NCBI RefSeq assembly: GCF_900188025.1
Contig: NZ_FZNO01000006.1
Coordinates: forward strand, 124,001 to 188,000
Direction of reading: 5' to 3'
Length of the DNA stretch: 64,000 nt
Source of the DNA: Blastococcus mobilis
GTDB lineage: Bacteria; Actinomycetota; Actinomycetes; Mycobacteriales; Geodermatophilaceae
Shown piece by piece: positions 46,801 through 61,455 of this stretch. Below the pieces are notes generated by a model. It had not been told where the DNA came from and did not search any database. It saw only the letters and a list, made by a program, of their open reading frames with translations. A program made the translations under genes and the position numbers. Numbering within the stretch: the first letter of the stretch is position 1; every line of letters starts with the position of its first letter.

Positions 46801-47804
46801 GCTGTGTCCTTCGCGGCGGCGTACGGGGTCGGGACGATGGCGGCGGCCAGTCGGCGCCGGTGGTTGCTGGCGATCGCGTAGGCGAACGTCACGTCGTTGG
46901 TCGTGACCTCGAGCGGCGCGTCCGGTGGGTGGCGGAGGAGGAGGACGTCGCCGACGGCGAGGGAGAGCAGGTCCGCCGACGAGACGGTGAGCGGGGCGAA
47001 GCGCACGCTGACGTCGACCGGCACGAGGTTGAGCCGGGCGGTGAGCGCCTCGGCGGCACGCTTGCGCTTGGCCAGCGCCGTCTCGGAGAGCTGCGGCGAG
47101 GCCGCGTTGTTGAGCGCCTGGGCGAAGGAGGAGAACGGCAGGACGAGCGTCGCCTCGCCCTCCCGGGCGCCGACGGCCATCGCGAAGGTGGCGACCATGA
47201 CGGTGTCGGACCCGGAGGCGGCCTGCGCCAGCAGCGGGTTGTACTCGAACCCGTTGAGCGCCGGCTGGATGTCGGTGATCGAGGCGAACGAGGCGGCGAA
47301 CTCGTCGAGCAGCCGGCCCAGCAGGTGGTCGGTGATGGCGGACTCCATCGCCGTCATCGGCCGGTTCGGCTGCTCGGCCCGGCCCGAGCCGCCCAGCATG
47401 TGGTCCACGATGGCCATGGCCATGTCCAGCGGGTACGCGAGGAGGCCCTTGCCGGCCAGCGGCTCCAGCGTGAACGTGGTGATGAAGACGGGGTTGGGGA
47501 GCGTCACGAGGTAGTCGTCGTAGGAGAACTGCTCGATCCCGACGAGCTCGAGGCGGGCACCGGCGCGCAGGAAGGTCGTGAGGATGGTGGTCGCCTGGCG
47601 GGCGAAGGACTCCTGGGCGATCTGCAGGACCCGGACGTGTTCACGGGAGAGCTTCGTCGGCCGGCGGAAGTCGTAGGTGCGGGGCTCACCGCGGCGGCTG
47701 CGCCCGCTCGTCCCGCTGCCGGGGAGCGACGGTGCCGTGGGTGACGCCTCCGGGGACAGAGGGCCCGCCTTGCCGGGGGCTCGTCCGGTCTCGGGTTGGG
47801 TCAC
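46797..47804 (-). CDS. fliM: flagellar motor switch protein FliM
   Basis: FliM of about 335 aa. It has the middle CheC-like domain with LEPLAGKGLLAYPL and HMLGGSGR and a C-terminal SpoA domain (DVSVRFAPLTVSSADLLSL). It links FliG to FliN in the C-ring. The usual N-terminal CheY-binding peptide (LSQxEIDALL) is not visible; the first 45 residues are Pro/Ser/Gly-rich. GTG 47804 is preferred over ATG 47816 because GAGG lies 6 nt before it. Confidence 0.93.
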   Translation of the reverse strand: MTQPETGRAPGKAGPLSPEASPTAPSLPGSGTSGRSRRGEPRTYDFRRPTKLSREHVRVLQIAQESFARQATTILTTFLRAGARLELVGIEQFSYDDYLVTLPNPVFITTFTLEPLAGKGLLAYPLDMAMAIVDHMLGGSGRAEQPNRPMTAMESAITDHLLGRLLDEFAASFASITDIQPALNGFEYNPLLAQAASGSDTVMVATFAMAVGAREGEATLVLPFSSFAQALNNAASPQLSETALAKRKRAAEALTARLNLVPVDVSVRFAPLTVSSADLLSLAVGDVLLLRHPPDAPLEVTTNDVTFAYAIASNHRRRLAAAIVPTPYAAAKDTA

Positions 47805-47812
47805 GTCAGACC

Positions 47813-47840
47813 TCATCGGCGGAACCGGGGCCGACCCTGA
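47813..47840 (-). promoter_or_regulatory. sigma-28-type promoter upstream of fliM
   Basis: On the minus strand TCAG (47840-47837), 16 nt, then GCCGATGA (47820-47813). The spacing and boxes equal those before flbD and flgB. The start point would fall near the fliM GTG, giving an almost leaderless mRNA. It directly follows the hairpin behind fliL. Confidence 0.6.
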
Positions 47841-47930
47841 CCGACGGCGCGGGAGCGCTTCCGGTCCTCCGGGAGAGGTGTGACGGGTGGTGCGGAGTGT
47901 GGTGGTGCGTGATGTGCCGGTGCCGTGCGA

Positions 47931-47971
47931 ACGAGCGGCGGACCCCGCTGGGAGCGGGGCCCACCGCTCGT
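47931..47971 (-). terminator. nested hairpin after fliL
   Basis: The outer stem ACGAGCGG (47931-47938) pairs with CCGCTCGT (47964-47971). The inner stem CCCCGCT (47943-47949) pairs with AGCGGGG (47953-47959). It begins in the fliL stop codon and separates the flbD-fliL unit from fliM. The other 90 nt of the gap hold the fliM promoter. Confidence 0.7.
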
Positions 47972-48438
47972 CACTGCGTGACGTACTCGGTGTAGTAGAT
48001 GCCCATCACCATCGGGACGTCGTGTTCGGTGTAGGCCTCGATGATCTTCTGCTCCAGCGCTTCCTTGAGCGCTTCCCGGGCCCCGACCACGTCGGCCGGG
48101 TTCGCCTGCGAGAACGTCGAGATGATCTGGTCGTAGGCCTTGGCGCCGTCGACGCTCGCGCCGCCGTGGCCGCCGCCGGCGGCCGCCGTGGTGATCTCCA
48201 GGGTGATGCCGACCTTGAGGTAGCCACCCCCGGCGAGGTTGACCGCCACCGGCTGCAAGGCGACGTACCCGCCGTGCTCCGGGGGCGCGGCCTCGGCCTC
48301 GCCCGAACTGGCGAACAGGAAGAAGTAGGCGGCCCCGGCCGCGGCCACGAGAACCACGCCGAGGATGAGGAAGAGCTTCTTCTTGCCGCCCTTGCCCTCG
48401 GTCTCCTCGGTCTCGGAGGTCTTGTCTCTGGTGCTCAC
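47971..48438 (-). CDS. fliL: flagellar basal body-associated protein FliL
   Basis: FliL of 155 aa. A Lys/Glu-rich cytoplasmic start precedes one membrane helix (LFLILGVVLVAAAGAAYFFLF). The periplasmic-side domain begins YVALQPVAVNLAGGGYLKVGI and ends with the conserved MGIYYTEYVTQ. FliL rings surround stator units and support torque. GTG 48438 overlaps the motB stop (GTGA), which fits a stator operon. Confidence 0.92.
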   Translation of the reverse strand: MSTRDKTSETEETEGKGGKKKLFLILGVVLVAAAGAAYFFLFASSGEAEAAPPEHGGYVALQPVAVNLAGGGYLKVGITLEITTAAAGGGHGGASVDGAKAYDQIISTFSQANPADVVGAREALKEALEQKIIEAYTEHDVPMVMGIYYTEYVTQ

Positions 48439-49340
48439 GGCGTTGCCTCCTGTTGGGTGGCGTCGATGCCCGGCAGCAGAGCGTTGGCCTCTGCCGAGGC
48501 GTTGGACAGGACGACGATGTCGACCCGGCGGTTGACCGACAGGGCGTTCGGATCGGACTGGGGGACCAGCGGCCGGGTCGAGGAGTAGCCGGTGGCCGAC
48601 ATGCGGGGTTCGGGAACGCCCTCGCCGGCGAGGTAGCGGAGCACGGTGCTGGCGCGGTAGCCGGAAAGCTCCCAGTTGGAGGGCCACGGGCCGCCCTTGG
48701 TGACGGGCAGGTGGTTGGCATGCCCCTCGACGCGCAGAACGTTGGACAGATCGGTCAGCGCAGGTGCGACGGCGCGGAGGATCGCTGCACCCTCGGGGCG
48801 GAGGACGGCCGCCTCGGCGTCGAAGAGGACCTGGTCGGCGACGATGTGCACCACGAGGCCTCGCTCGTCGACTTCGAAGCGTGCCGCGTCGGCGTATCCG
48901 GCCGCGGCCAGGGCGGCTTCGATCTCGGCCCGGGCGGCGGCGAGCTCGTCGTAGGCCGAGGCGGCCTCGGCGGCGATCCGCTCGGCCCGCTCGGCAGCGG
49001 CTGCCGCCGCGGCGGCGTCGACCTGGGTGTCCTGGACCGACGGGTCCGGCGGGATGGCGGAGGCGATGTCGATGGCCCCTGGCAGGCCGTCGAGCACGGC
49101 TCCCTCGGGAGTCGTGCCGGCCATCACGCTGATGGGAGCCCCGAAGCTCGCCGACAGGCCCTTGGCCAGGGCCGCGAACTTCGTCTTGTCGACCTCGCTC
49201 ATGGCGTACAGCACGATGAACAGGACGAGGAGCAGCGTCATCATGTCGGCGTAGGACACCATCCACCGCTCGTGGTTCTCGTGCTCCTCCTCCTCGTGCT
49301 TCTTCGGGCGTCTGCGCCCCGGATGCGGGGCGGTGCTCAC
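48435..49340 (-). CDS. motB: flagellar stator protein MotB
   Basis: MotB of 301 aa. A charged start (KKHEEEEHENHERW) leads to the single membrane helix with the proton-conducting Asp32 (SYADMMTLLLVLF). A helical, Ala/Glu-rich linker and an OmpA-like peptidoglycan-binding domain (VEGHANHLP, NWELSGYRASTVLRYL, NRRVDIVVL) follow. The Asp and the MotB-type plug suggest H+ rather than Na+ drive, which is inference. It forms the stator with MotA, 73 nt upstream. Confidence 0.95.
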   Translation of the reverse strand: MSTAPHPGRRRPKKHEEEEHENHERWMVSYADMMTLLLVLFIVLYAMSEVDKTKFAALAKGLSASFGAPISVMAGTTPEGAVLDGLPGAIDIASAIPPDPSVQDTQVDAAAAAAAAERAERIAAEAASAYDELAAARAEIEAALAAAGYADAARFEVDERGLVVHIVADQVLFDAEAAVLRPEGAAILRAVAPALTDLSNVLRVEGHANHLPVTKGGPWPSNWELSGYRASTVLRYLAGEGVPEPRMSATGYSSTRPLVPQSDPNALSVNRRVDIVVLSNASAEANALLPGIDATQQEATP

Positions 49341-49413
49341 GAGCCCTCCTCGCCAGCGCTCGACGGCCGCGTTCGCGGGGCCGCTGCGTCGATGGGTGCG
49401 CCCGCACGCTCCC

Positions 49414-50184
49414 TCACGCTGCCTCCCGCTCGACCTCGCTCGGAGGCACCATGGCGGTGAGCTTCTGGCGCACGGCCCGCGGGCTGGTGCCGGCCTGGAT
49501 CTCGGTGATGCCCTCGACCAGCAGCTCCATCTGCGCGGCCTGCAGCTCGCTGACCCGCATGATCTTGGCCCCCATGGGCAGGAACCAGAAGTTGGCTGCC
49601 ATGACGCCCCAGAGGGTGGCGACGAACGCGGCGGCGATCATCGGGCCCAGCGACTCCGGGTCGTTGAGGTTCTCCATCACGTTGATGAGCCCGACGACGC
49701 AGCCCACGATGCCGATGGTGGGGGAGTAGCCGCCCATCTGGTTGAAGAACTTCGCGGCGACCTTGTCCTCCGACTTCTTCGCCGCGATCTCGCCCTCGAG
49801 CACGGCGCGGAGCTCCTCGGGGTCGGTGCCGTCGATGCCCATCTGCAGGCCGCGCTTCAGGAACGGGTCGTCGATCTGCTTGACCTGCGCCTCGAGCGCG
49901 AGCAGACCCTCCTTGCGCGCCTTCTCGGCGAGGCTCACCAGGGTCTGGATCTGCTGGGTCGGCGGGGCCACCTTGGCAGGCAGCACCCCCATCTTGAACC
50001 AGGCGGGGATCTTCTTCAGGTCGCTCATCGTGAAGCTCGACAGCGCCGCACCGAAGGTGGCGAAGATGACCAGGACGATCGCCGGGAGGAAGAGCAGCGA
50101 CATCGGGTCGGCGCCTTCGAGGATCATGAAGATCAGCAGGGCACCGAGCGAGATCGCGAACCCGATCAGAGTGGCCGGATCCAT
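49414..50184 (-). CDS. motA: flagellar stator protein MotA
   Basis: MotA of 256 aa with four membrane segments, of which the last pair has GGYSPTIGIVGCVVGLI and FVATLWGVMAANFWFLPMG. Between segments 2 and 3 is the charged cytoplasmic loop (ARKEGLLALEAQV, DDPFLKRGLQM) that touches FliG. Five MotA surround two MotB and carry protons to drive rotation. It starts 3 nt after the flbD stop. Confidence 0.96.
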   Translation of the reverse strand: MDPATLIGFAISLGALLIFMILEGADPMSLLFLPAIVLVIFATFGAALSSFTMSDLKKIPAWFKMGVLPAKVAPPTQQIQTLVSLAEKARKEGLLALEAQVKQIDDPFLKRGLQMGIDGTDPEELRAVLEGEIAAKKSEDKVAAKFFNQMGGYSPTIGIVGCVVGLINVMENLNDPESLGPMIAAAFVATLWGVMAANFWFLPMGAKIMRVSELQAAQMELLVEGITEIQAGTSPRAVRQKLTAMVPPSEVEREAA

Positions 50185-50187
50185 GGA

Positions 50188-50472
50188 TCAGCGCTCCTCG
50201 CGGCTCGGGAACGGGACGACCGACGAGTCCGCGGGGGCGACGCCCTCGCGCCGGGCCGGGCGGTACTCGCCGCGGTCCATCTCGTAGGACGTCGCGAGGA
50301 TCCCCGCGCGGTACTCCCGGATCTCCTCGAGCACCTCGTCCACGGTCTCCTTGACCACGTACTTGGTGCCGTCCAGCAGGAAGGCGACCGTGTCGGGGTG
50401 CGCCTCGATCCGCTCGATCAGGTCGGGGTTGAGCGCGAACTGCTCACCGTTCAGGCGCGTCACACGGATCAC
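50188..50472 (-). CDS. flbD: FlbD family flagellar protein
   Basis: Small protein of 94 aa of the FlbD (Gram-positive) family, which is unrelated to the Caulobacter regulator of that name. The conserved start is MIRVTRLNGEQFALNPDLIE and the body has TKYVVKETVDEVLEEI. The function is uncertain; in other genomes it lies, as here, right before motA. It opens the flbD-motA-motB-fliL unit behind a sigma-28-type promoter. Confidence 0.88.
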   Translation of the reverse strand: MIRVTRLNGEQFALNPDLIERIEAHPDTVAFLLDGTKYVVKETVDEVLEEIREYRAGILATSYEMDRGEYRPARREGVAPADSSVVPFPSREER

Positions 50473-50524
50473 GGTTCGGTCCTCTTGGTCGGTAGGGCCC
50501 GGAGGGGGCGGGAAGGCACTCTTC

Positions 50525-50552
50525 TCATCGGCTCACCAAGACCCTTCCTTGA
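50525..50552 (-). promoter_or_regulatory. sigma-28-type promoter upstream of flbD-motA-motB-fliL
   Basis: On the minus strand TCAA (50552-50549), 16 nt, then GCCGATGA (50532-50525), 53 nt before the flbD start. This is the best match in the window to the FliA/SigD/WhiG consensus (TAAA, 15-16 nt, GCCGATAA). Confidence 0.7.
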
Positions 50553-50604
50553 GCCGAACGGCCGGTGAGGACGACGGCATAGCCCCGGGATCCCGCGGAA
50601 AATC

Positions 50605-50642
50605 GACGGCCCGGCCACTCCGCGGGGAGTGACCGGGCCGTC
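50605..50642 (-). terminator. nested hairpin after flgE
   Basis: The outer stem GACGGCCCGG (50605-50614) pairs with CCGGGCCGTC (50633-50642). The inner stem CACTCC (50616-50621) pairs with GGAGTG (50626-50631). It separates the flgB-flgE unit from the flbD promoter. Confidence 0.75.
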
Positions 50643-50689
50643 CCATGGCCTCCCTCCAGAGCCCTCACATGGCGGGGAGGTGGGAGCTG

Positions 50690-50747
50690 GAGGACCCGCC
50701 TGCCCCCCGTCGCTCGCACGCTCGCGGCGGGGCCCTACAGGCGGGCC
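50690..50747. repeat. dispersed palindromic element, copy C (inverted)
   Basis: Contains GCTCGCACGCTCGCGGCGGGG, the reverse complement of the core in copies A and B. The stems CCCGCCTG/CAGGCGGG (outer) and CCCCGTCGC/GCGGCGGGG (inner) fold well. It begins 7 nt after the flgE stop, in the opposite orientation relative to its gene than copies A, B and D. With 50605-50642 it makes a double terminator. Confidence 0.65.
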
Positions 50748-50753
50748 GACGAA

Positions 50754-51989
50754 CTAGCGCTTGAGGTTGACCAGGTCCTGCAGGATCTCGTCGGAGCTGG
50801 TGATCACGCGGCTGTTGGCCTGGAAGCCGCGCTGGGCGACGATCAGGCCGGTGAACTCCTCGGCGAGGTCGACGTTCGACATCTCCAGCGCACCGGACAT
50901 CAGCGCGCCACGACCGCCTTCTGCCGCCGTGCCGATCTGCGCCACGCCGGAGTTCACCCCGACCCGGAACGAGCTGTTGCCGGCCTTCTCCAGCCCCCCG
51001 GGGTTGTTGAAGGAGCCCAGGGCCAGGCGGCCGATGGGCTGGCGCAGCTCGTTGGAGTAGACGCCCATGATCGTGCCGTCGGCACCGAGCTGGAAGGACT
51101 GCAGGGAGCCCAGTGCGTACCCGTCCTGCTCCGGAGCTCCCAGCGTGTTCGCACCGCCGTACTGGGTGAGCCCGCTGATGTTCACCGTCACGGCGTTCTG
51201 CCAGCTGGCGTAGGCAGCGGGAGGCGTGAACGCGGGCAGATTGAACGCTGGGCCGGCCGGGTCGATCAGGGCTCCGGCGGCGTCGAACTCGATCTGCGTG
51301 GCGGGCAGCAGATTGGTGCCGTCGGAGTGGTCGACGGTGACGTCCCAGGTGTTGGCGCCGGTCTTCGCGAAGTTGTAGAAGACCTTCTGCGCGACGCCCT
51401 GGCTGTCGTACATGGTGATGCCGGTCTGGGCCGTGGCACCGATCGCGGCGTCCGAGGGCAGGTTGCCGTTGACGATCCCGGAGGTGCTGGCGCTCGGGTT
51501 CACGAGCTGGCCGTAGGGGACCGACAGGTCACCGATGGGGCCGTTCGGGTTGACCACGCCATCGGCATTCGCCATCCAGCCCTGCAGGATCGAGCCGTCG
51601 GGTGTGACCAGCTTGCCGGCCCCGTCGAAGTCGAACGAGCCCGCGCGGGTGAACAGCTGCTCGCCACCGGTGCCGCGGGTGACGAAGAAGCCGTCGCCCT
51701 CGATCATGAAGTCCGTCGAGCGGCCGGTGGACTGGGTGGCGCCCTGGGTCCAGTTGGTGGTGATCGCGGCGACCTTCACGCCGAGGCCGACCTGCGCCGG
51801 GTTCGTGCCACCGCGGTCCGCGGCCGGGGCCCCGCCCGCGCGGATGACCTGCGAGAGCGTGTCCTGGAAGACGGTCTGCGATCCCTTGAAGCCCACCGTG
51901 TTGACGTTGGCGATGTTGTTGCCGGTGACGTCCATCTTGGTCTGGTGCGCGCGGAGGCCGGAGATGGCCGAGAACATGGAACGAAGCAC
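50754..51989 (-). CDS. flgE: flagellar hook protein FlgE
   Basis: Hook subunit of 411 aa. The N-terminal rod-type motif is MFSAISGLRAHQTKMDVTGNNIAN and the C-terminus is typical (GALEMSNVDLAEEFTGLIVA, FQANSRVITSSDEIL). It has the length and middle domains of hook FlgE rather than the shorter FlgF/FlgG rod proteins. GTG 51989 has GAGGAG 9 nt upstream; the in-frame ATG lies at codon 5. It is the last gene of the basal-body unit. Confidence 0.95.
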   Translation of the reverse strand: MLRSMFSAISGLRAHQTKMDVTGNNIANVNTVGFKGSQTVFQDTLSQVIRAGGAPAADRGGTNPAQVGLGVKVAAITTNWTQGATQSTGRSTDFMIEGDGFFVTRGTGGEQLFTRAGSFDFDGAGKLVTPDGSILQGWMANADGVVNPNGPIGDLSVPYGQLVNPSASTSGIVNGNLPSDAAIGATAQTGITMYDSQGVAQKVFYNFAKTGANTWDVTVDHSDGTNLLPATQIEFDAAGALIDPAGPAFNLPAFTPPAAYASWQNAVTVNISGLTQYGGANTLGAPEQDGYALGSLQSFQLGADGTIMGVYSNELRQPIGRLALGSFNNPGGLEKAGNSSFRVGVNSGVAQIGTAAEGGRGALMSGALEMSNVDLAEEFTGLIVAQRGFQANSRVITSSDEILQDLVNLKR

Positions 51990-52046
51990 GGAGAGGTTCT
52001 CCTCAGGTGTCGGGGTCGCCGGTCGGCAGGAGAGCGGTCGGGCGGG

Positions 52047-52478
52047 TCAGGAGGGCTTGGGGACGGCGATCTCGGTGAGGCGGCCGACCGGGACCTTGAC
52101 GCCGTCGATGACGGCCACGGCCTCGCTGTCGCGGCTGGCGAGCCGGACCGAGGTGACGACCCCGGTCCTCGACGCGCCGGTCGTGTCGGTGTAGGTGGCG
52201 GTCCGTCCGACGAGGGCGCCGGCGGTGGCCGACTCCTGGAGGACGAGCATCGACGCGTTCTGGTTGACCAGCTGCTCCAGCTTCTCGACCTGACTGAAGG
52301 TCGCCGTCTGGGACATCATCTGGCTCGAGTCGACCGGATTTCCCGGGTCCTGGTAGCGCATCTGGGCGACCAGGAGCTTCATGAAGACGTCCTTGCCCAT
52401 CTGGTCGGGACGGTCGACCGTTGAGGAGGCGGGGGTGTAGTACGTGCCCTCGATCCCGGTCACGCCTGGTGTCGTCAT
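52047..52478 (-). CDS. flgD: flagellar hook assembly protein FlgD (short form)
   Basis: Hook-capping scaffold of 143 aa. The N-terminal domain is clear (MGKDVFMKLLVAQMRYQDPGNPVDSS motif region, FSQVEKLEQL). The C-terminus has only a short SH3-like part (GALVGRTATYTD, VPVGRLTEIAVP) and lacks the FlnI-like domain of E. coli FlgD (231 aa). Short FlgD is common in Gram-positives. ATG 52478 is the family start and AGGAG lies 10 nt upstream. Confidence 0.92.
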   Translation of the reverse strand: MTTPGVTGIEGTYYTPASSTVDRPDQMGKDVFMKLLVAQMRYQDPGNPVDSSQMMSQTATFSQVEKLEQLVNQNASMLVLQESATAGALVGRTATYTDTTGASRTGVVTSVRLASRDSEAVAVIDGVKVPVGRLTEIAVPKPS

Positions 52479-52495
52479 CGGTCGGTCGCTCCTTC

Positions 52496-54070
52496 TCAGA
52501 CGCGCACGTCCACGCCGGACGACGTGGAGCGGTTGCGGGGCGGCGTCGGTCCGCTCACTGGGGTATCGGCAGGCGTGCCCCAGGGGCGTGACCGTTCGTC
52601 GCCCCGGTCCTGCTGGGTGCCGCGGTGGCCGAAGGCCTGCTGCTCGGCCTGCTGCTGTGCCGAGTGGCGGGCCAGCCACGAGCCGCCGGTGTCCCGGTCG
52701 ACCTCCAGCCGGGAGCAGTTCAGCCCCGCGCCTTCCAGGTCCCTGCGCAGGTCGGGCAGCCCGTCGAGGAGGGCCGCCCGCCCGTACTCGTGTGCGCCGC
52801 GGAGGGTGAGGTCGACGGTTCCTCGGGTCAGGGTGACCGAGACCTCGACCGGCCCGAGGTTCTCCGGGTTGAGGACGAGGGTCATCGTCTGGGTCCCGTC
52901 GGGGCCGCGGCCGAGCACGGCGACCTGGCGGGCGATCTGTGACCCCACGGGCAGGGCCGCCGCCGATCCGGTGGCGCCGGTCGCGGCGGTCGGCGTGGTG
53001 GCCGAGACCGGCGCGGAGCTCGCCGCGGACCCGAGGAGGCTCACCTCGGAGACCCCGTCCCCGGCAGGAGCGCTCGGTGCCCCGGAGCCCGTACCGGGGT
53101 GCCCGGCGCCAGGCGACTGCGATCCGCCCGCCCCGGACGAGCCCACCTGCGCGGTGGCTGCGGCGGGAGCGGCTCCGGTCGTGCCCGCCGCCTCTCCCGA
53201 TGTCGGCAGTGCGCTGAGGCCACCGGGTGCCACCGGCGCCTCGGGCACCGCGGCGGCCGGCACCACAGTGGCCGCCACCCCGGCGGCCGGCACCGGGGTG
53301 GCGGCGCGGGAGTCCCCGGCCACGACGACCGTGAGGCCGGCGGCTGCCGGCCCCCCGTGCGCGGCGGAGACGGGTGCCACGACAGGAGCCGGGATCGTCC
53401 CCGCGGCATCGGGCACCGGGACAGCAGCGGGTGCGGCGCCGACCGCGGGGGCCGGTACCGCGGCCGGCACACCGCCGGCGGCGTCGGTCGGTGCGGTCAC
53501 CACAGGGCCTCCGGTCACATCGGCCCGGCCGCCCGGGGGAGCCGCCACCGCCGGGCCGACAGTCACCGTCGCGGCGGCGTCCGTCTGACCGGTGGTGGCG
53601 AGGGGGGTGCCCAGCACCATCGCCCAGACCGCGGCCGGCAGGCCCGTCCCCGCCGTGTCGGTCGCGGCGGTCTCGCCGGTTCCCCCGGCAGCATCGACGG
53701 CGGGGTCCGCGGCGCCGTCCGGCGTCGTGCCCGTGCTCTGGTCGACCGCCGCGCCGTCGCCCCGCGCCGCCGCGGCGGCCGCGCGGTCCAGTGCCCGGTC
53801 CGCCCGGTCCGCTGCCCGCTCCGCCTGCTGCATGGCCCGCGTACCGGCCTCGGTGGCCCGGTTCGCCGCTCGGGCCGCTCGGTCGTCAGGGGTGCTGCGG
53901 CGCTCGGCGGCCCGGTCCGCCCCGGGGAACCGGTCCGCGGAGAGAGCGTCGCCCAGGGCGGAGGCGAACGGTGACGCCCCGGCCGCGCCGCGCACGTCCG
54001 GACCGTTCGCAGGCCGCGCGCGATGTGCGATCGCGGTGCTGTGGAGGGGCAGCGCCCCGGGAGCCGTCAT
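52496..54070 (-). CDS. fliK: flagellar hook-length control protein FliK
   Basis: Protein of 524 aa. A very Ala/Arg/Asp-rich N-terminal helical region (AERAADRADRALDRAAAAAA) leads into a long Ala/Pro/Gly/Val/Thr-rich spacer. The conserved Flg_hook domain is at the C-terminus (MTLVLNPENLGPVEVSVTL, LRGAHEYGRAALLDGLPDLR). It measures hook length and switches FlhB specificity. It overlaps the preceding hydrolase gene by 4 nt. Confidence 0.9.
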   Translation of the reverse strand: MTAPGALPLHSTAIAHRARPANGPDVRGAAGASPFASALGDALSADRFPGADRAAERRSTPDDRAARAANRATEAGTRAMQQAERAADRADRALDRAAAAAARGDGAAVDQSTGTTPDGAADPAVDAAGGTGETAATDTAGTGLPAAVWAMVLGTPLATTGQTDAAATVTVGPAVAAPPGGRADVTGGPVVTAPTDAAGGVPAAVPAPAVGAAPAAVPVPDAAGTIPAPVVAPVSAAHGGPAAAGLTVVVAGDSRAATPVPAAGVAATVVPAAAVPEAPVAPGGLSALPTSGEAAGTTGAAPAAATAQVGSSGAGGSQSPGAGHPGTGSGAPSAPAGDGVSEVSLLGSAASSAPVSATTPTAATGATGSAAALPVGSQIARQVAVLGRGPDGTQTMTLVLNPENLGPVEVSVTLTRGTVDLTLRGAHEYGRAALLDGLPDLRRDLEGAGLNCSRLEVDRDTGGSWLARHSAQQQAEQQAFGHRGTQQDRGDERSRPWGTPADTPVSGPTPPRNRSTSSGVDVRV

Positions 54071-55008
54071 CGGTAGGTCTCCGCCTCGGTCATCACTGCA
54101 CGGACGTAGTTCTGGGTCTCGGGGTAGGGCGGGATGCCGCCGTAGCGGCTCACCGTGCCGGGGCCGGCGTTGTAGGCGGCCAGAGCGAGCTCAGTGGACC
54201 CGAACTGCTTGGTGAGGCTGCTCAGGTAGCGGGCCGCGCCGTCGATCGCCGACGTCGGGTCGAGCGCGTTCACGCCGAGGCCCTTGGCCGTCGCGGGCAT
54301 GAACTGCATGAGGCCCTGTGCACCGGCCGACGAGACCGCCGAGGCGTTGAAGCCGGACTCCTGCGACGCCACGGCCGCCAGCAGCGAGGCGTCCACCCCG
54401 TGGCGGGCGCCCGCCCGGGTGAACAGGTCGGCGTAGGGCACCCCGGCCAGCGCGCCGGCGGACGCGGACGAGGGGCCGGCCGCCTGCTGGGGGAGCACGC
54501 GGCGGATGACCGTCGGGCTGCCGACGTCCTGCACCTTCACGACCTCGCCGGCCTGCGGGGCGGCGATCATCTTGCCGTTGCCGATGTAGACCCCGACGTG
54601 GTCGATACCGGCCCGCGACGAGGAGTGGTCGAAGAAGAGGAGGTCACCCGGGCGCGCCTCGCTCAAGGAGGCCACCGGCTGGCCGCTCGTGGCCTGCTGG
54701 GAGGACGTCCGAGGCAGTTCGATGCCCAGGTTCTTGTAGACGAGCTGGGTGAAGCCGGAGCAGTCCAGCCCCTGCGTGGGGTCGGTCCCGCCCCACAGGT
54801 AGGGGACGCCGAGGTACTTCTGCGCCTCGGCGACGACGGCGTCCTCGCTCGCGGTCGGACCGGCGCTGGAGACGGTCGTGCTGCTCGTCCCGGTGAGCCC
54901 GGCGGCGGCGGCCGCGCTCGCCCAGGTGCCCGACGTCGAGACGGGGCGGTGCACGAAGCGGCTCTGGATCTCGCTGATCCGGGCCTGCACCTGGGTCACA
55001 CCCTCCAC
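54067..55008 (-). CDS. NlpC/P60 and lytic transglycosylase fusion, flagellar peptidoglycan hydrolase
   Basis: Protein of 313 aa with two wall-cutting domains. NlpC/P60 covers about residues 55-170, with Cys83 (GLDCSGFTQLVY) and His137 (DHVGVYIG). A Slt-type transglycosylase covers about 190-313, with Glu217 (VASQESGFN), AQGLMQFMPATA and AYNAGPGTVSRYGG. No signal peptide is seen, so it may be exported through the flagellar apparatus as FlgJ is. It lies between fliJ and fliK and presumably opens peptidoglycan for the rod. Confidence 0.9.
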   Translation of the reverse strand: MEGVTQVQARISEIQSRFVHRPVSTSGTWASAAAAAGLTGTSSTTVSSAGPTASEDAVVAEAQKYLGVPYLWGGTDPTQGLDCSGFTQLVYKNLGIELPRTSSQQATSGQPVASLSEARPGDLLFFDHSSSRAGIDHVGVYIGNGKMIAAPQAGEVVKVQDVGSPTVIRRVLPQQAAGPSSASAGALAGVPYADLFTRAGARHGVDASLLAAVASQESGFNASAVSSAGAQGLMQFMPATAKGLGVNALDPTSAIDGAARYLSSLTKQFGSTELALAAYNAGPGTVSRYGGIPPYPETQNYVRAVMTEAETYR

Positions 55009-55493
55009 GGCACCTCCCCGGTCTCGTGTCCCTGCTCCATGTCCTCGGCACAGTCATCGGCAGGCCGGGTGGCCGACCGTCCCGCGCGCCCGGTCACGAG
55101 GTCGTCGACGGCACGCTCCTCTGCGGTGTCCTCCGCGTGCTGGAGCTCGGCCATGTGTCGCTCGCGGAGCCGCTCCAGGCCCTTGGTGCGCTGCGCGGCC
55201 GCGGTCCACCGGGCACGCACGAGCGCCGACTGCTCGGCGGAGGCGGTGGCCAGGGCGCGGGCGTCCGAGGCGTCGGTGGCCGCGGTACGCAGCAGCGTCA
55301 TGGCGGCGAGGAACTGGCCGGCGGGCAGTGACCGGGGGAGGACGGCGGTCGCGAGCGCCGTCTCGTACTCGGTGGCCCGGCGGTCGGCGTCGGCCGCGGC
55401 GTTCGCCGCCTCCGCCGCGGCGGCGGCTGCGGCCCGCTCCTCGCTCCGACGCAGCTCCAGCACCGGCTGCAGGCGGAACGCCGCCCGCTTCAC
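54996..55493 (-). CDS. fliJ: flagellar export chaperone FliJ
   Basis: Protein of 165 aa, almost entirely an antiparallel coiled coil rich in Ala, Arg and Glu. It starts FRLQPVLELRRSEERAAAAA, the usual FliJ opening. It stimulates the FliI ATPase and couples it to FlhA. It is called from fold, length and place 25 nt after fliI. It overlaps the following hydrolase gene by 13 nt. Confidence 0.88.
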   Translation of the reverse strand: MKRAAFRLQPVLELRRSEERAAAAAAAEAANAAADADRRATEYETALATAVLPRSLPAGQFLAAMTLLRTAATDASDARALATASAEQSALVRARWTAAAQRTKGLERLRERHMAELQHAEDTAEERAVDDLVTGRAGRSATRPADDCAEDMEQGHETGEVPWRV

Positions 55494-55518
55494 GCGAGAG
55501 CCCTGCGCGACCGCGTCG

Positions 55519-56829
55519 TCACGCCGACCTCACGATCCGCTGCAGCCAGTTCCAGGACTCCGCCGGCGGGGTGGACTCACCCATGGGCTGCTGGAGGAAC
55601 GCCTCGATGGCGGGCGCGAGCATGCGAGCGCGGTCGACGAGTGGATCGCTGCCGGTCTGGTACGCCCCGATCTCGATGAGCTCCCGCACGTCGCGCAGCG
55701 CGCCCATCAGCCGGCGGACCTCTCGGGCGTCGGCCATCTGCGCCGGCGGCACGACGGCCGTCGCGACACGGGAGATCGACTCCAGGACGTCGATGGCCGG
55801 GAAGTGGCCGGTCGTGGCCAGCTTGCGGGTGAGCACGATGTGGCCGTCGAGGATCGACCGCGCGGTGTCGGCGATCGGCTCGTTGTGGTCGTCGCCCTCC
55901 ACCAGGACGGTGTAGAGGCCGGTGATCGAGCCGGTGATGCCGGTGCCGGCCTTCTCGAGCAGCTGCGGCATCATCGCGAAGACGCTGGGCGGGTAGCCCC
56001 GGGTCGCCGGCGGCTCGCCCGCGGACAGGCCCACCTCGCGCTGCGCCATGGCGGTGCGGGTGATCGAGTCCATGAGCAGCAGCACGTCGCGGCCCTCGTC
56101 GCGGAACGCCTCGGCGATGCGGGTGGCGACGAACGCGGCCTTGAGCCGCACCAGCGGCGGCTCGTCGGACGTCGCGACGACGACGACGGTGCGCGCCATG
56201 CCCTCCTCGCCAAGGTTCTCCTCGAGGAATTCGCGCACCTCGCGACCACGCTCGCCGATCAGGCCGATGACCCGGACGTCGGCATCGGTGCCGCGGGTGA
56301 TCTGCGCCAGCAGGCTGGACTTGCCGACGCCGGAGCCGGCGAAGATGCCCAGGCGCTGTCCCTTGCCGCAGGGCACCAGCGTGTCCAGCGCGCGGACCCC
56401 GAAGGTCAGCGGCTCCTGGACCCGGGTGCGGCTCAGCGCGTGCGGCGTCTCGCTGGCCAGGTCCACGAAGGCGATCCGGGAGCCGAGCGGCGGACCGCCG
56501 TCGACGGGCCGGCCGAGACCGTCGAGCACCCGGCCCAGCAGCGCCTCGCCCACCGGCACCTGCAGCGGCATGCCGGTCGCGCGCACGGGCGCGCCGGCGT
56601 GGACGCCGGAGAGGTTCCCGAGCGGCATGCAGGTGAGCCGGTCCCGGCCGACGGCGACGACCTCGGCGAGCAGCGCGCGACTGCCGGGGTCGACCTCGAC
56701 CAGGTCGCCGACGGCGGCGCTGATGCCGTCGACGGTCAGGGTCAGGCCCATGGCGCCGGTGACCGATCCGGTCACCTGCGGCCGGGCTGCGGCCCGGGCA
56801 CGCGCCAGCACGGTGGACGGGAACGTCAT
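55519..56829 (-). CDS. fliI: flagellum-specific ATPase FliI
   Basis: ATPase of 436 aa related to F1-beta. Walker A is AGSGVGKS (164-171), with GERGREVREFLEE, Walker B LLLMDSITRTAMAQREVGL and RGYPPSVFAMMPQLLEKAG. It energises export with FliH and FliJ at the base of the motor. ATG 56829 overlaps the fliH stop (ATGA). The frame runs open upstream but that part is not FliI-like. Confidence 0.96.
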   Translation of the reverse strand: MTFPSTVLARARAAARPQVTGSVTGAMGLTLTVDGISAAVGDLVEVDPGSRALLAEVVAVGRDRLTCMPLGNLSGVHAGAPVRATGMPLQVPVGEALLGRVLDGLGRPVDGGPPLGSRIAFVDLASETPHALSRTRVQEPLTFGVRALDTLVPCGKGQRLGIFAGSGVGKSSLLAQITRGTDADVRVIGLIGERGREVREFLEENLGEEGMARTVVVVATSDEPPLVRLKAAFVATRIAEAFRDEGRDVLLLMDSITRTAMAQREVGLSAGEPPATRGYPPSVFAMMPQLLEKAGTGITGSITGLYTVLVEGDDHNEPIADTARSILDGHIVLTRKLATTGHFPAIDVLESISRVATAVVPPAQMADAREVRRLMGALRDVRELIEIGAYQTGSDPLVDRARMLAPAIEAFLQQPMGESTPPAESWNWLQRIVRSA

Positions 56830-57578
56830 GAGGCCAGGACCGCCTGCACCCGCTCGAACGCGGCACCGAGCTGGGCGTCGATCCGGCGGGGGCCGATCTC
56901 CGCGATCGCTCCGGCCCGTTCCACGGTCAGGTCGCCGACCACCCGGACGGTCTCGGGGAGCTCGGCGAGGGCCTCGGTGGGGATCTCGGCCAGGTCGTCG
57001 GGATGCACCCGCACCACCGCAGGCGAGTCGGACGGGGACAGCGACAGCGCGCGCCGGACGGCGTCCAGGACCGGGGAGTCGGCGAGAGCGAGCTCGCGGC
57101 CGAGCAGGTCCTCGACCAGGGTGAGGACCGTCCCGATGACGGTCTCGCGGATCTCGTCCGCGGTCGGCACCGACGCCTCGTCGAGACGCGCGACCGCGGC
57201 GGTGAGGGCTGCGGTCGCCGACGCCATCCGCCGCTCCCACCGGGCCTGCACGTCGGCGAGACGCTCGGCGGCGGCCCGCTCGGTCTCGGCGACCACGGCC
57301 GCTGCGGCGGTCATGCCCTCGGCGTGGCCGGCGGTGAAGCCCTCCGCGTGCGCGCGCTGGCGCAGCCGCGCCAGTTCCTCGGCGTAGACGTCGCCCAGCC
57401 GGAAGGACGGCCCGCCGCCGACGACCGGGACGTCGGCCGCGCGGCGGACGGTCGAGCGCCGCTCGACGGCCGGCTCGGACTGCTGGACCGGGATCTGCTC
57501 GGGACGGGACCCGCGGTAGGGAACGGCCCGCTGCGCGCCGGCGCCGCGCAGCAGGACACCCTCACGAGACGAACTCAT
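56826..57578 (-). CDS. fliH: flagellar assembly protein FliH
   Basis: Protein of 250 aa. An Arg/Pro-rich N-terminus precedes the Ala/Gly-rich helical segment with GFTAGHAEG-type repeats. The C-terminal FliH/V-ATPase E-like domain (ETVIGTVLTLVEDLLGREL, AVVRVHPDDLAEI) follows. It holds FliI at the C-ring. The start lies 17 nt inside fliG, so the two genes are tightly coupled. Confidence 0.9.
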   Translation of the reverse strand: MSSSREGVLLRGAGAQRAVPYRGSRPEQIPVQQSEPAVERRSTVRRAADVPVVGGGPSFRLGDVYAEELARLRQRAHAEGFTAGHAEGMTAAAAVVAETERAAAERLADVQARWERRMASATAALTAAVARLDEASVPTADEIRETVIGTVLTLVEDLLGRELALADSPVLDAVRRALSLSPSDSPAVVRVHPDDLAEIPTEALAELPETVRVVGDLTVERAGAIAEIGPRRIDAQLGAAFERVQAVLAS

Positions 57579-58644
57579 CGTCCTGTCCGCGGGTCAGCGT
57601 CAGGACACCCTGCTCCTCGAGCGTGCGGATGATGCCGACGACCTTGGCCTGGGCCTCCTCGACCGTGCGCGTGCGAACCGGGCCGAGCAGCTCGATCTCC
57701 TCGTTGAGGTTCTCGGCGGCACGCTCGGAGAGGTTCCGGACGACCTTGTCGCGGACGTCGGGGCGGACGCCCTTGAGGGCTGTGGCCAGGTCGTTGGCCT
57801 CGACCTCGCGCAACACCTGCTGCAGGGAGCGGTCGTCGATGGTGACGATGTCCTCGAAGACGAACATCTGCGAGCGGACCTGCTCGGCCAGCTCCGGGTC
57901 GGTGCTGTCCAGCCACTCGAGGATGGAGCGCTCGGTAGGCCGCGGCGAGCGGTTGATGATCTCGACGAGGGTCTCGACGCCACCGACGGTGGTCATGTCC
58001 TGGTGCGCGAGGAGCGAGCCCATCCGGCGGCCCAGCTCTTCCTCGACGAGGCGGACCATCTCGGGCGACGTCCGGTCCATCGTGGCGATGCGGTGGGCGA
58101 CCTCGGCCTGCTGTTCCGGGGCGAAGCCGGAGAGCACCTCGGCCGACTGGGCGGCGGTGAGGTGGGCGAGGACCAGCGCGATGATCTGCGCGTGCTCGTC
58201 CTTGAGGAAGGTGACGAGCTGGCGCACGTCGGCGTTGCGCAGAGAGGCGAACGGCACCTCGGTGTAGACGACGTTGAGCCGGGACAGGATGCCCTCCGCC
58301 TTGTCCTCGCCCAGGCCGGCCGCGAGGATCTCGCGGGCGAATTCGACCCCGCCGCGGCCGATGAACTGCTGGGCGGTCATGAGGCCGTGGAACTCGCTCA
58401 TGACCTCGTCGACGTCCTCGACCTCGACCGAGCCCAGGCGCATCAGCTCCCGGGTCAGCGATTCGACCTCGCGGGGCCGGAGCTTGGTCAGGATGGCCCC
58501 GGCTTCCTCCTTGGTCATCTGGGCGAGGAACACCGCCGCCTTGCGGAGGCCCGGGAGCTCTGCACGTGGAGGAGCCGCCGGAACGGCGGGCAGGTTGGCC
58601 ACCCCGCCCAGTCCGACCAGCTGCTCCATACCGGCCAGCGTCAC
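57562..58644 (-). CDS. fliG: flagellar motor switch protein FliG
   Basis: FliG of 360 aa. The N-domain (KAAVFLAQMTKEEAGAILTKL) binds FliF. The ARM domains contain EHAQIIALVLAHLTAAQSAEVL, and the C-domain has the charged torque helix region (DRSLQQVLREVEANDLATAL). It touches MotA and sets the rotation sense. GTG 58644 overlaps the fliF stop (GTGA). ATG 58629 is an in-frame alternative. Confidence 0.96.
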   Translation of the reverse strand: MTLAGMEQLVGLGGVANLPAVPAAPPRAELPGLRKAAVFLAQMTKEEAGAILTKLRPREVESLTRELMRLGSVEVEDVDEVMSEFHGLMTAQQFIGRGGVEFAREILAAGLGEDKAEGILSRLNVVYTEVPFASLRNADVRQLVTFLKDEHAQIIALVLAHLTAAQSAEVLSGFAPEQQAEVAHRIATMDRTSPEMVRLVEEELGRRMGSLLAHQDMTTVGGVETLVEIINRSPRPTERSILEWLDSTDPELAEQVRSQMFVFEDIVTIDDRSLQQVLREVEANDLATALKGVRPDVRDKVVRNLSERAAENLNEEIELLGPVRTRTVEEAQAKVVGIIRTLEEQGVLTLTRGQDDEFVS

Positions 58645-60234
58645 GACTTGTTCTCCGTCAGCCAGCCGCGCAGCATCGCCGCGACCTCGTCCGGACGCTC
58701 GCTCACCATGGCCGAGATCTCCCCCCGCACCTTCTGCCGTTCGGCGGCCTCGAGCTCCATCTGGCGGTTGTCGATCTGGACCTCTTCGCGGCTGCTCGCG
58801 ACCCGGAGGCGGTCGAGCTCGGCGAGCATGTCGTCGCTGAGCTCGAGGGGCTCGTACTCCTCCTCGATCTCGCTGCGGCGGCGCGACCGGAGCCAGACGA
58901 TGAGGACGACGAGCGCGATGCCGGCGGCGATGCCACCGGTGCGGATCATCGACCACATCTGCTCGCTGGCCTCGGCCTCGCGAGCGGCCTCCATCTCCGC
59001 CGCGGCGGCCTCTGCCGCCGCATTGTCGAAGGGCATCGCGGCGACCGCGATCTCGTCGCCGCGCGCCTCGTCCAGGCCGACGGCGTTGCCGATCAGGTCA
59101 CGGATCTGCTGCTGATTGAGGTTGCCGGCGACCGTGTCGTCCATCACCACCGAGACGGTCAGCCGGTTCAGCGCGCCAGGGGTGCCCTCGACGACCTCGG
59201 TGACCTTGCCGACGGAGTTGTTCGCCGTCGTCGACTCCTTGTTGTAGGCCGACTCGCCGCCGCCGGCGTTCTCCGCCGCGTCGGGCATGTTCTCTGGCCC
59301 CAGCACGCCCCCGACCGGGGCGCCCCCGCCGACGTACTCCTCGGTCGTCGTGGTCTCCGACAGCGGCGGGGTGTCCTCGTCGTAGACGTAGGTCTCCGAC
59401 GTGGTGGCCCGATGGTCGAGGTCGACGTCCGCGCGAACGGACACCACGGCCCGGCCCGGGCCGAGCACCCGGTCGAGGATCTGCTGGGCGTTGGTGGCCA
59501 GCCGGGACTGGTACTCCTGCTCGACCTGCGAGCGGGCGTCACCGGCGCCGCCGGGTGATCCCGCTGCCGGGTGCGGCGAGCACCTGGCCGGCGGCGTCGG
59601 TCACGGTGACCTGGCCGGGCTCCATGCCCTGGATGCTGGAGGAGACCAGGTTGGTCACCGCCTGGATCTGTTCCCCCGACAGCGTCGTCCCGGCGGCGAG
59701 GTCGAGCAGCACCGACGCGGTGGGGTCGGCCTGGTCGGTCACGAAGACCTCGTCCTCGGGCAGGGCGACGTGCACGACGGCGGAATTGACGCCGTCCAGC
59801 GCCTCGAGGGTCTTGGATAGCTCCCCCTCCAGCGCGCGCTGGTAGGTGACCTGCTGCTGGAACTCGCTGGTCGTGATGCCCTGCTCGTCGAGGAGTGCGT
59901 ACCCGGTGTCCTGACCGGCCGGCAGGCCCTGGCCGCTCATGGTCAGCCGCAGGTCGTAGACCTGGTCCTTGGCCACCATGATCGTCTGACCGCCGTCGGT
60001 GAGCTCGTAGGCGACACCTGCCGCGTTGAGCTCGTCGACGATCGCCGAGGCGTCGGTGGAGGCCAGGTTCGAGAACAGCGGGGCCTGCGTGGGGGCGGTG
60101 ATCCAGCGGAAGAAGAAGAACCCGCCGAGAAGCAGCCCGAGGACGAGAAGGCCGATGACGACCTTCTGTCCGAGGCTGATCGTGGAGAACGTGGAGCGGG
60201 CGCGCTCCATCGTCCCGGCGAGTGCCGCATTCAT
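58641..60234 (-). pseudogene. fliF: flagellar MS-ring protein FliF, single-base frameshift
   Basis: The MS-ring gene is complete in content but in two frames. From ATG 60234 the first frame gives the N-terminal membrane helix (VVIGLLVLGLLLGGFFFF), the ring-building domains (ELNAAGVAYELTDGGQTIMV, VHVALPEDEVF) and stops at 59539. The second frame continues from GAGDARSQVEQEYQSRL through DRVLGPGRAVVSV, a second membrane helix and the FliG-binding tail (EVAAMLRGWLTENKS). Removing one G from GGG at 59553-59555 (plus strand) joins them exactly (GSGITGGAGDARS). FliF is essential for flagella, so this is either an error in the sequence or a motility-null mutation. Confidence 0.9.
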
Positions 60235-60551
60235 CAGACCGGCATCCTCATGATCTCGTTGAAGGCCTCAACGGCCTTGTTCTTGAAGGTCACGACCATC
60301 TCGGTGGCCAGGGACGCCTCGGTCCTGGCGATGACGTAGTCGTGCACGTCCTTCAGGTCGCCGGTGGCGGCCTGGGCACCGAGGGCGTCCGCCGCGTTCT
60401 GCGTGCTCTGCAGCTCGTCGAACGTCGAGGCCAGCACCGAGGCGAAGCCGTCGGCACCCGCGCCGGCCTGCACACCGGGCTCGGTGACGCCGCCGACCGC
60501 GCCGAGGCCGACCGGGGTGATACCGCCGATGGCGCCGATGGGAGAGGTCAT
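60234..60551 (-). CDS. fliE: flagellar hook-basal body protein FliE
   Basis: FliE of 105 aa joins the MS ring to the rod. The conserved C-terminal half reads DLKDVHDYVIARTEASLATE and FKNKAVEAFNEIMRMPV. The Gly-rich N-terminal 35 residues are variable. Its stop shares a base with the fliF start (TGATG), so translation is coupled. Confidence 0.94.
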   Translation of the reverse strand: MTSPIGAIGGITPVGLGAVGGVTEPGVQAGAGADGFASVLASTFDELQSTQNAADALGAQAATGDLKDVHDYVIARTEASLATEMVVTFKNKAVEAFNEIMRMPV

Positions 60552-60553
60552 GG

Positions 60554-60958
60554 TCAGCCCTTCCCGAGCTGGAGAGCGGCCTGGTACATGTTCGTGGCCC
60601 GTTCCACCACGGCGAGGTTCGCCTGGTAGCCGCGCTGGGCGATCATCATCTGGGTCATCTGGTCACCGAGATCGATGTCGGGGTACTTGACGTAGCCCTC
60701 CTCGTCGGCGAGCGGGTGGTCCGGCTGGTAGACCATCCGGCCCTGGGGGTCGCCGAACTCGGCGCGGGCGACGCGGACGCCGCCGCTCCCCGAGCCGTAG
60801 TCGACCGACTGCGCGACGACGAAGCGCTGCTGGAAGGCGTCCTCGTCGGTCCGCCGGACCGTGTTGATGTTCGAGATGTTGTCCGAGACGGCGTCCAGCC
60901 ACTTGCGGTGGACCATCAGCCCCGACCCGGAGATCCCGAGCGTGTCGAAGATGGCCAC
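60554..60958 (-). CDS. flgC: flagellar basal-body rod protein FlgC
   Basis: Proximal rod protein of 134 aa. It has the rod N-terminal motif ISGSGLMVHRKWLDAVSDNISNINT and the FlgC C-terminus YPDIDLGDQMTQMMIAQRGYQ with NLAVVERATNMYQAAL. GTG 60958 lies 1 nt after the flgB stop. The length is usual for the family. Confidence 0.95.
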   Translation of the reverse strand: MAIFDTLGISGSGLMVHRKWLDAVSDNISNINTVRRTDEDAFQQRFVVAQSVDYGSGSGGVRVARAEFGDPQGRMVYQPDHPLADEEGYVKYPDIDLGDQMTQMMIAQRGYQANLAVVERATNMYQAALQLGKG

Positions 60959-60959
60959 G

Positions 60960-61307
60960 TCATGCCGTCCTGAGGGCGGTGCGCAGGGAGTTGTACTTGC
61001 CGTCGAGCGCGTTCAGGGCCAGCTGGTAGCGCAGGCCGGTCTCGGTGGCGATGAGCGTCTCCGCGTCGAGGTTGACGTTGTTGCCGTTGGTGTTGGTCGG
61101 CTCGAGCGAGCGCGCGACCGTGCCACCGTTGATCTCCGGCGTCTCGCCGCTGCGCAGGGCGCCCTTGAGCGAGGACTCGAAGTCGACGCGACCGGCCAGG
61201 AAACCGGGCGTGTTGATGTTGGCGATGTTGTCGGCGGTGACGCGCTGGCGCTGCGCGAGGCCGGAGAGGCTGGCGTGCAGCGCCGCGGGGGTGATGTCGC
61301 CGATCAC
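60960..61307 (-). CDS. flgB: flagellar basal-body rod protein FlgB
   Basis: Proximal rod protein of about 115 aa: ALHASLSGLAQRQRVTADNIAN, NTPGFLAGRVDFESSL and the C-terminal ATETGLRYQLALNALDGKYNS. The frame stays open to 61373 (TTG) with GTG at 61367. Those starts lie in or beside a hairpin and lack an SD. GTG 61307 gives the usual family N-terminus and overlaps the stop of a short upstream frame that does have a strong SD. It is the first gene of the basal-body unit. Confidence 0.88.
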   Translation of the reverse strand: MIGDITPAALHASLSGLAQRQRVTADNIANINTPGFLAGRVDFESSLKGALRSGETPEINGGTVARSLEPTNTNGNNVNLDAETLIATETGLRYQLALNALDGKYNSLRTALRTA

Positions 61308-61339
61308 GGCGCGGGTCGCCGACGGGTGCAGCAGGACAC
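61304..61339 (-). CDS. 11-codon upstream ORF coupled to flgB
   Basis: GTG 61339 follows a strong SD (GGAGG, 6 nt away) and encodes an 11-residue peptide with adjacent Cys residues (SCCTRRRPAP after the start). Its TGA overlaps the flgB GTG (GTGA). It may deliver ribosomes to flgB, which lacks its own SD. An undetected indel joining it to flgB is the alternative. Confidence 0.4.
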   Translation of the reverse strand: MSCCTRRRPAP

Positions 61340-61427
61340 GTTCGACCTCCGGGTACGCGGAAGGCACTCGCAAGCGAGTGCGGGGTCCGCCGATCCGTGG
61401 CGAAGTGGTGCTGTCCGTGCTCTTCCC

Positions 61428-61455
61428 TCATCGGCACCCCGGCCGGAGGGCCTGA
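61428..61455 (-). promoter_or_regulatory. sigma-28-type promoter upstream of flgB
   Basis: On the minus strand TCAG (61455-61452), 16 nt, then GCCGATGA (61435-61428), about 120 nt upstream of flgB. The leader between contains a perfect hairpin GCACTCGC-AA-GCGAGTGC (61364-61381). The remaining sequence of the 320-nt gap up to the next terminator shows no gene. Confidence 0.65.

Follow-up and report, generated by a model that had tools for sequence, protein, structure and literature searches.

A probable TCAR-type variant of the sigma-28 promoter and candidate CsrA sites in leaders of the flagellar cluster of Blastococcus mobilis

The stretch of Blastococcus mobilis DNA analysed here (64,000 nucleotides; assembly GCF_900188025.1, contig NZ_FZNO01000006.1, positions 124,001 to 188,000 of the forward strand; "the window" below) carries flagellar operons that appear, from their upstream sequences, to be served by one promoter class. 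A sequence-only reading had noticed TCAA or TCAG followed, after exactly 16 nucleotides (nt), by GCCGATGA upstream of flgB, flbD and fliM, and the pattern is indeed present, exact and on the minus strand, at all three places listed below. The three sites are probably the -35 and -10 boxes of one flagellar promoter class, with a FliA-like sigma factor encoded in the same cluster as its reader and CsrA acting on the leaders as a further tier.

61428..61455, minus strand: flgB promoter; TCAG, 16 nt, GCCGATGA; kept in relatives with a spacer of 16 and in the extended form GGTCA...TGCCGATG.
50525..50552, minus strand: promoter of flbD, followed by motA and motB; TCAA, 16 nt, GCCGATGA; exact or with one mismatch in 57/64 loci.
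47813..47840, minus strand: fliM promoter; TCAG, 16 nt, GCCGATGA.

Dinucleotide-shuffled versions of the window hold a mean of 0.01 matches to TCAR-N16-GCCGATGA, and none of 100 shuffles reached three. The genome-wide motif scan that the sequence-only reading had called for (5,094,633 bases in 88 contigs) found TCAR-N16-GCCGATRA at the three flagellar sites only, with no match for the reversed-pattern control. The -10 word carries no weight by itself, because GCCGATGA is common in the genome; the window has 21 copies against 3.7 expected on both strands, and the over-represented word is probably a coding word. With one mismatch allowed, the whole genome gave 112 matches against 15 for the reversed control, and among the matches listed the flagellar cluster had only the three sites and C41:188951, before flagellin; with the word so common, the one-mismatch scan was rejected as a regulon finder. 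It also picked up a tandem repeat at C36:95545-95866, with eight matches at 42-nt spacing. Across 57 genomes of the Geodermatophilaceae, an exact match occurs in 52, with 166 matches against six for the reversed pattern. Their distribution, 151 in the 48 genomes with FliM and 15 in the nine without (about 1.7 each, the background), means that the reversed control understates the background, and the sites are judged real from their position and conservation. Chance matches in a GC-rich genome would be suggested by the abundance of GCCGATGA and by the background in FliM-less genomes, but the position of the sites at three operon heads and their retention in relatives leave this explanation a practically negligible probability.

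Conservation was followed in 80 FlgE-anchored loci. Judged by FlgE, the nearest relatives with a name belong to Blastococcus (B. litoris at 83% identity), and a close-relative set of 63 loci comprises the Geodermatophilaceae and two loci labelled otherwise (a Frankiales metagenome-assembled genome and a "Bacillus sp." record). At least one exact site is present in 63/63 close-relative loci and in 0/17 distant ones, and the reversed pattern in 0/80. When spacers of 13 to 19 were allowed, 111 of the 112 exact sites upstream of flgB, flbD and fliM in family loci had a spacer of 16, the remaining one having 15. The best site upstream of fliM is exact in 55/70 loci; upstream of flbD, 29 of 64 loci are exact and 28 have one mismatch, with the 16-nt spacer; and upstream of flgB 27/70 are exact, a total that includes loci whose flgB lies outside the stretch. 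In the site-anchored alignment the conserved positions are the two boxes, G[GC]TCA[AG] at -35 and GCCGATG, while the spacer sequence is variable. Base changes occur inside the boxes among relatives while the spacer length of 16 is kept.

Compared with sigma-28 promoters (TAAA / GCCGATAA; PMC8325347), the likeness lies in the two boxes, in a -10 box that is GCCGATGA at all three sites and thus one base from GCCGATAA, in the fixed spacer described above, and in the placement before flagellar operons. The differences are a -35 box of TCAG or TCAA where TAAA would be standard, a spacer of 16 (15 in 20/26 sites of other families) and the inclusion of early genes. The class is therefore called a sigma-28 variant and not a standard member, its -35 being TCAR (G[GC]TCA[AG]). 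The proposed resemblance to the FliA/SigD/WhiG consensus thus stands for the -10 box and fails for the -35 box. The further proposal, that one sigma-28-class factor serves basal-body, stator and switch/export genes alike, agrees with such promoters standing before flgB, flbD-motAB and fliM; the idea of a distant factor is not needed. WhiG-like sigmas of the FliA family drive the flagella of Actinoplanes missouriensis (PMC8325347). Sigma-28-class control of actinobacterial flagella having already been reported, the promoter finding is not new in kind.

Related sites were found at six operon heads of the flagellar cluster: flgB, flbD, fliM, fliC, flgN and the sigma gene. In this genome flagellin (fliC) is preceded by TCAA-N16-GCCGAAGA, flgN by TTGA-N16-GCCGATGG and the cluster sigma gene by TCAA-N16-GCCGAGGG. 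Over 21 loci, our own included, the flgN site has a spacer of 16 in 17 and of 15 in one, with none found in three, and the site of the sigma gene was found in 10. By eye, several relatives have TCAA-N16-GCCGTA before flagellin; a stricter scorer found no site in 9/16 flagellin regions, and inspection of the fliC-fliD gap by eye found no site of the class. The pattern TCAAG-N15-GCCGWWR gave five matches in this genome against two for the control. Three of the matches lie outside the cluster, in or near an open reading frame (ORF) resembling an extracytoplasmic function (ECF) sigma factor, a transposase-like ORF and an ORF without a Pfam match, so this pattern tied no chemotaxis or receptor gene to the class, the chemotaxis genes themselves not having been located. 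At L189 (C69) TCAAG-N15-GCCGATG stands directly before a 299-amino-acid ORF without a Pfam match, a possible further target.

The TCAR class, of sigma-28 type, is also present in the other flagellated actinobacterial families sampled (20 of the 46 FliM-positive genomes outside the Geodermatophilaceae in the class sample, picked for family diversity, with 16 flanking stretches from 15 genomes). A strict TCAR-N15/16-GCCGAW occurs upstream of flbD in 12/18, fliM in 6/20, flgB in 4/16 and fliC in 4/12, against 0/66 for the reversed pattern, 2/66 on the opposite strand and 1.6% of random windows. With 15 as their prevailing spacer against 16 in the Geodermatophilaceae, the whole class may have changed its spacer in concert between families.

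With no fliA gene in the window, the sequence-only reading had suggested that the factor could be a distant FliA or WhiG. That the factor must be distant is not supported: the suggested search for a fliA or whiG gene yielded both a FliA-like gene about 1 kilobase (kb) beyond the window's edge, in the same cluster, and a WhiG gene on C77.

C41:189009-189980, head of the flagellar cluster, about 1 kb past the right edge of the window: FliA-like cluster sigma gene; start set by conservation.

The gene (start GTG at L041:1980; 323 codons) adjoins flagellin and diverges from flgN. Its product scores 150.6 and 152.2 bits to TIGR02479 (the 152-bit match at C41:189183-189842), and is called FliA-like without being filed as a member, because TIGR02479 is its best family but the score is under the cut-off. 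Within the family, a cluster-sigma match (145-158 bits) is present in 47/48 genomes with FliM and 0/9 without, sharing a contig with fliM in 39 of the 47, at 17.4-22.5 kb, and lying on another contig in eight. In one FliM-positive genome, the FliM match at G048:C1:2286998-2287545 is split between two neighbouring segments that differ in frame, which points to a frameshift or an error in the sequence. The recognition segments of the cluster sigma read DWASRSVR in 19/21 loci and SRVSQMR in 18/21, the others being unread by the script; those of WhiG read DWIPRSVR and SRICQ[LM]H, each in 21/21. Cluster sigmas from stretches of six genomes of other families, on which its spread outside the Geodermatophilaceae rests, have DWA[AST]R and SQ[ML]R. 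The region-4 helix is thus SRVSQMR in the cluster sigma against SRxxQxH in WhiG and E. coli FliA, and we infer that the His-to-Arg change goes with TCAR in place of TAAA. It is on these residues and on its location that the choice of the cluster sigma rests, WhiG being present in the same genomes; by the same token the cluster-encoded factor most likely reads the TCAR sites, and the site before its gene suggests that it feeds itself.

WhiG (C77:40671-41345, beside a XerC-like gene, rpsB, tsf, pyrH and frr) is the sole match over the TIGR02479 cut-off in this genome and a WhiG equivalog by NCBIfam (391.7 bits, cut-off 343). It could itself read the sites in place of the cluster sigma and, being restrained by RsiG loaded with cyclic di-GMP (c-di-GMP), would put the flagellar cluster under c-di-GMP control, which we consider possible, if on the unlikely side. 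An RsiG candidate with both c-di-GMP motifs is available.

C85:15081-15641: RsiG candidate; 186 amino acids; both c-di-GMP motifs.

It scores 67.9 and 38.1 bits to Pfam RsiG (cut-off 27), with the motif E(X)3S(X)2R(X)3[QH](X)3D occurring twice, at residues 44 and 144; both motifs are present in 21/21 genomes read. WhiG scores 309 bits against its counterpart chain in 6pfj, the RsiG complex, and the candidate matches the partner chain at 4e-24. Out of 57 family genomes, 49 have RsiG, 48 FliM and 48 WhiG over the cut-off, in nearly the same set; the exceptions are G033 (74% complete), with WhiG and RsiG and no FliM, and G054 (73% complete), without WhiG. The Actinoplanes precedent cited above also speaks for WhiG, whose roles in motile simple actinobacteria were, as of 2013, not yet analysed (PMC4255298). 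The RsiG-(c-di-GMP)-WhiG switch itself is known from Streptomyces and Rubrobacter (PMC8325347), and B. mobilis likewise has WhiG and a twin-motif RsiG; the outputs known or proposed there are sporulation and type IV pili, while the flagellar output considered here is hypothetical. Set against a WhiG reader are the FliA-like sigma in the flagellar cluster itself, a -35 box that is TCAR where PMC8325347 uses TAAA for WhiG, and the fact that the joint absence of WhiG, RsiG and flagella concerns three genera, may reflect one or a few events and comes partly from incomplete genomes. RsiG is reported in 16/16 Geodermatophilaceae and in no Actinoplanes (PMC8325347). Actinoplanes shares with B. mobilis the use of a sigma-28 class for its flagella and differs in having three FliA-family sigmas (PMC13293333) and no RsiG (PMC8325347), against one WhiG, one cluster sigma and a twin-motif RsiG here.

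The two sigmas might also share the sites, for example in a two-step cascade in which WhiG would first switch on the early operons along with the sigma gene, after which the cluster sigma would take over fliC, flgN and its own gene. This is unlikely. Site sub-types point that way, flgB and fliM having mostly GCCGATGA and fliC and the sigma gene often GCCGAA, GCCGTA or GCCGAG; the sub-types are not clean, however, because relatives vary between GCCGATGA and GCCGAAGA at flbD and GCCGATGA also turns up at some fliC sites.

At fliM, the proposed start codon lies just downstream of the promoter.

46797..47804, minus strand: fliM; Pfam FliM; proposed leaderless start GTG 47804.

The first in-frame start after the -10 box is GTG in 59 of 60 sites (own included), at +7 in 24 and at +8 in 35; the sixtieth, L046, was misframed by the script and has GTG at +8 by eye. 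Where the distance between -10 and GTG is one base longer or shorter, the reading frame shifts with the GTG. The ATG within the -10 box (GCCGATGA) was rejected as the start codon, being in frame in only 35/60. Seven loci of other families have GTG or ATG 9-10 nt after GCCGAW at fliM, which is the equivalent position. The simplest reading of these spacings is a leaderless fliM mRNA. They bear as well on whether the motif is a promoter or the binding site of an activator, since a regulator could equally bind two boxes of fixed spacing; the fixed distance of 7-8 nt between the box and the start codon of fliM is, however, the geometry of a -10 box and start site, and the boxes look like those of sigma-28 promoters and lack symmetry, so an activator site is very improbable.

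The leaders of flgB, fliC and, in other families, flbD have features that suggest a second, post-transcriptional tier of flagellar control. CsrA/RsmE is known to bind ANGGA loops (PMC7652899), and two ACGGA elements lie downstream of the flgB promoter.

61414..61418, minus strand: ACGGA element 1 of the flgB leader; in 45/46 family loci with flgB; candidate CsrA site.
61394..61398, minus strand: ACGGA element 2 of the flgB leader; CGCC/GGCG arms; in 44/46 loci; candidate CsrA site.
L041:5549-5824, plus strand, outside the window: csrA; PF02599, 85.1 bits (cut-off 27), 3e-24.

Immediately before csrA stands a FliW-like gene; both belong to the divergent run flgN ... flgL-fliW. In the Geodermatophilaceae, ACGGA is found in 43 of 46 scored flgB leaders, the other three (L094, L097, L103) proving on reading to contain no flgB leader, in 16/16 fliC regions and in 6/56 fliM regions, the last with 0-1 flanking pairs. 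A conserved fliC hairpin bears ACGGA in 15/16 and ACGGC in L143, and appears in the centroid fold. Outside the family, an ACGGA flanked by four or more pairs and no more than 110 nt from the aligned start occurs at flbD in 10/18, flgB in 9/16, fliC in 3/12 and fliM in 1/20, against 1.9% of random windows. Covariation of the arms was counted on outer pairs only, because two inner pairs were required for selection: 36 of 48 are paired for flbD of other families, against 20.5 after shuffling, and 39 of 48 for fliC, against 22.4, none of 2000 shuffles reaching the observed value in either case, by statistics that ignore the relatedness of the sequences. The fliC leaders and the flbD leaders of other families thus likely carry hairpins like CsrA sites. 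Rfam gave no match in the window.

Control of flagellin leaders by FliW and CsrA is known from Bacillus and from Campylobacter (PMC7652899, PMC4894983), and Campylobacter CsrA binds further flagellar mRNAs besides flagellin (same sources). The likeness here is a FliW-like gene and csrA in the cluster and an ANGGA-type fliC loop; the difference is that the actinobacterial loops, predicted from sequence, are also in flbD and flgB leaders. A limited literature search found no prior report of CsrA sites in actinobacterial flagellar leaders.

The flgB leader further contains a short ORF.

61304..61339, minus strand: upstream ORF of 11 codons; GTG preceded by GGAGG; TGA overlaps the flgB start.
60960..61307, minus strand: flgB; Pfam Flg_bb_rod; proposed start GTG 61307.

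A GGAGG-GTG ORF of 10-22 codons is present in our genome and in 43/46 relatives with flgB on the stretch, as well as, by eye, in L050, one of the three others. The flgB start could be assigned in 40/44, and all 40 lie no more than 12 nt from the ORF stop, nearly always with an ATGA or GTGA overlap. A search of 16 loci from other families turned up no such ORF. In E. coli, CsrA represses iraD via a coupled short ORF (PMC7652899); the iraD leader resembles that of flgB in the short ORF overlapping the next start and in the CsrA-type elements upstream, and differs in that the gene here is flgB, the ORF is found only in the Geodermatophilaceae and the coupling is putative.

Several results weigh against this combination of one promoter class, the cluster sigma and CsrA. 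On the side of the sigma factor, its 150-152 bits are below the TIGR02479 (FliA_WhiG) cut-off of 189.6, its own promoter site is in only 10/21 loci, G045 (a 260-contig draft) has FliM and no cluster-sigma match, and WhiG with canonical recognition residues is encoded in the same genomes; as to the promoters, 40/66 operon heads of other families are without a strict site. On the RNA side, ACGGA is present in 0/60 flbD leaders of the Geodermatophilaceae. Within the family, pairing of flgB element 1 is weakly above shuffles (32/2000 reach the observed value), and the arms of element 2, nearly invariant and for that reason uninformative, are matched by 720/2000; in other families 99/2000 shuffles reach the observed value for the flgB hairpin. 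The minimum-energy fold of our own flgB leader is without the element 2 hairpin, the fliC leader does not exceed its shuffles in stability, and the FliW-like gene matches its NCBIfam model at 3e-26 but with 92 bits, under the cut-off of 165.

In the scheme we favour, transcription by the cluster sigma would be followed by a check in the leaders, CsrA holding the fliC transcripts, those of flbD in other families and perhaps those of flgB until FliW frees them. Translation of flgB would be coupled to the short leader ORF, and the fliM mRNA would begin at its GTG and escape the CsrA tier. FlgM was found in 0/57 family genomes, with E. coli, B. subtilis and T. maritima controls all positive, and a published survey reports the later actinobacterial classes to be without it (PMC10746217); export of FlgM is therefore not the checkpoint. 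A bolder proposal is that in flagellated Geodermatophilaceae this checkpoint has been replaced by two others, an upper one in which RsiG loaded with c-di-GMP restrains WhiG and a second in which CsrA-FliW works through the leaders of fliC, flgB (with its coupled ORF) and other-family flbD, the leaderless switch/export operon escaping the latter; we regard it as quite doubtful.

Further flagellar genes in the window are as follows.

50188..50472, minus strand: flbD; Pfam FlbD, 4e-28.
49414..50184, minus strand: motA; Pfam MotA_ExbB.
48435..49340, minus strand: motB; Pfam MotB_plug and OmpA.
40255..42300, minus strand: flhA, among the genes that follow the fliM promoter; Pfam FHIPEP, 2e-256.
50754..51989, minus strand: flgE, among the genes that follow the flgB promoter; Pfam match.

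After flhA, a 959-amino-acid ORF at 37395-40274 (minus strand) has coding-like codon usage and matches nothing in Pfam or NCBIfam.

The putatively leaderless fliM, the CsrA-type leaders and the WhiG-RsiG pair beside the cluster sigma are the parts worth following. Taken together, the promoters, the two candidate sigmas, RsiG and the CsrA-type leaders offer a simple, testable scheme of flagellar control in soil actinobacteria; if it is true, flagellar assembly in these organisms would be timed partly at the RNA level and not by an exported anti-sigma factor.

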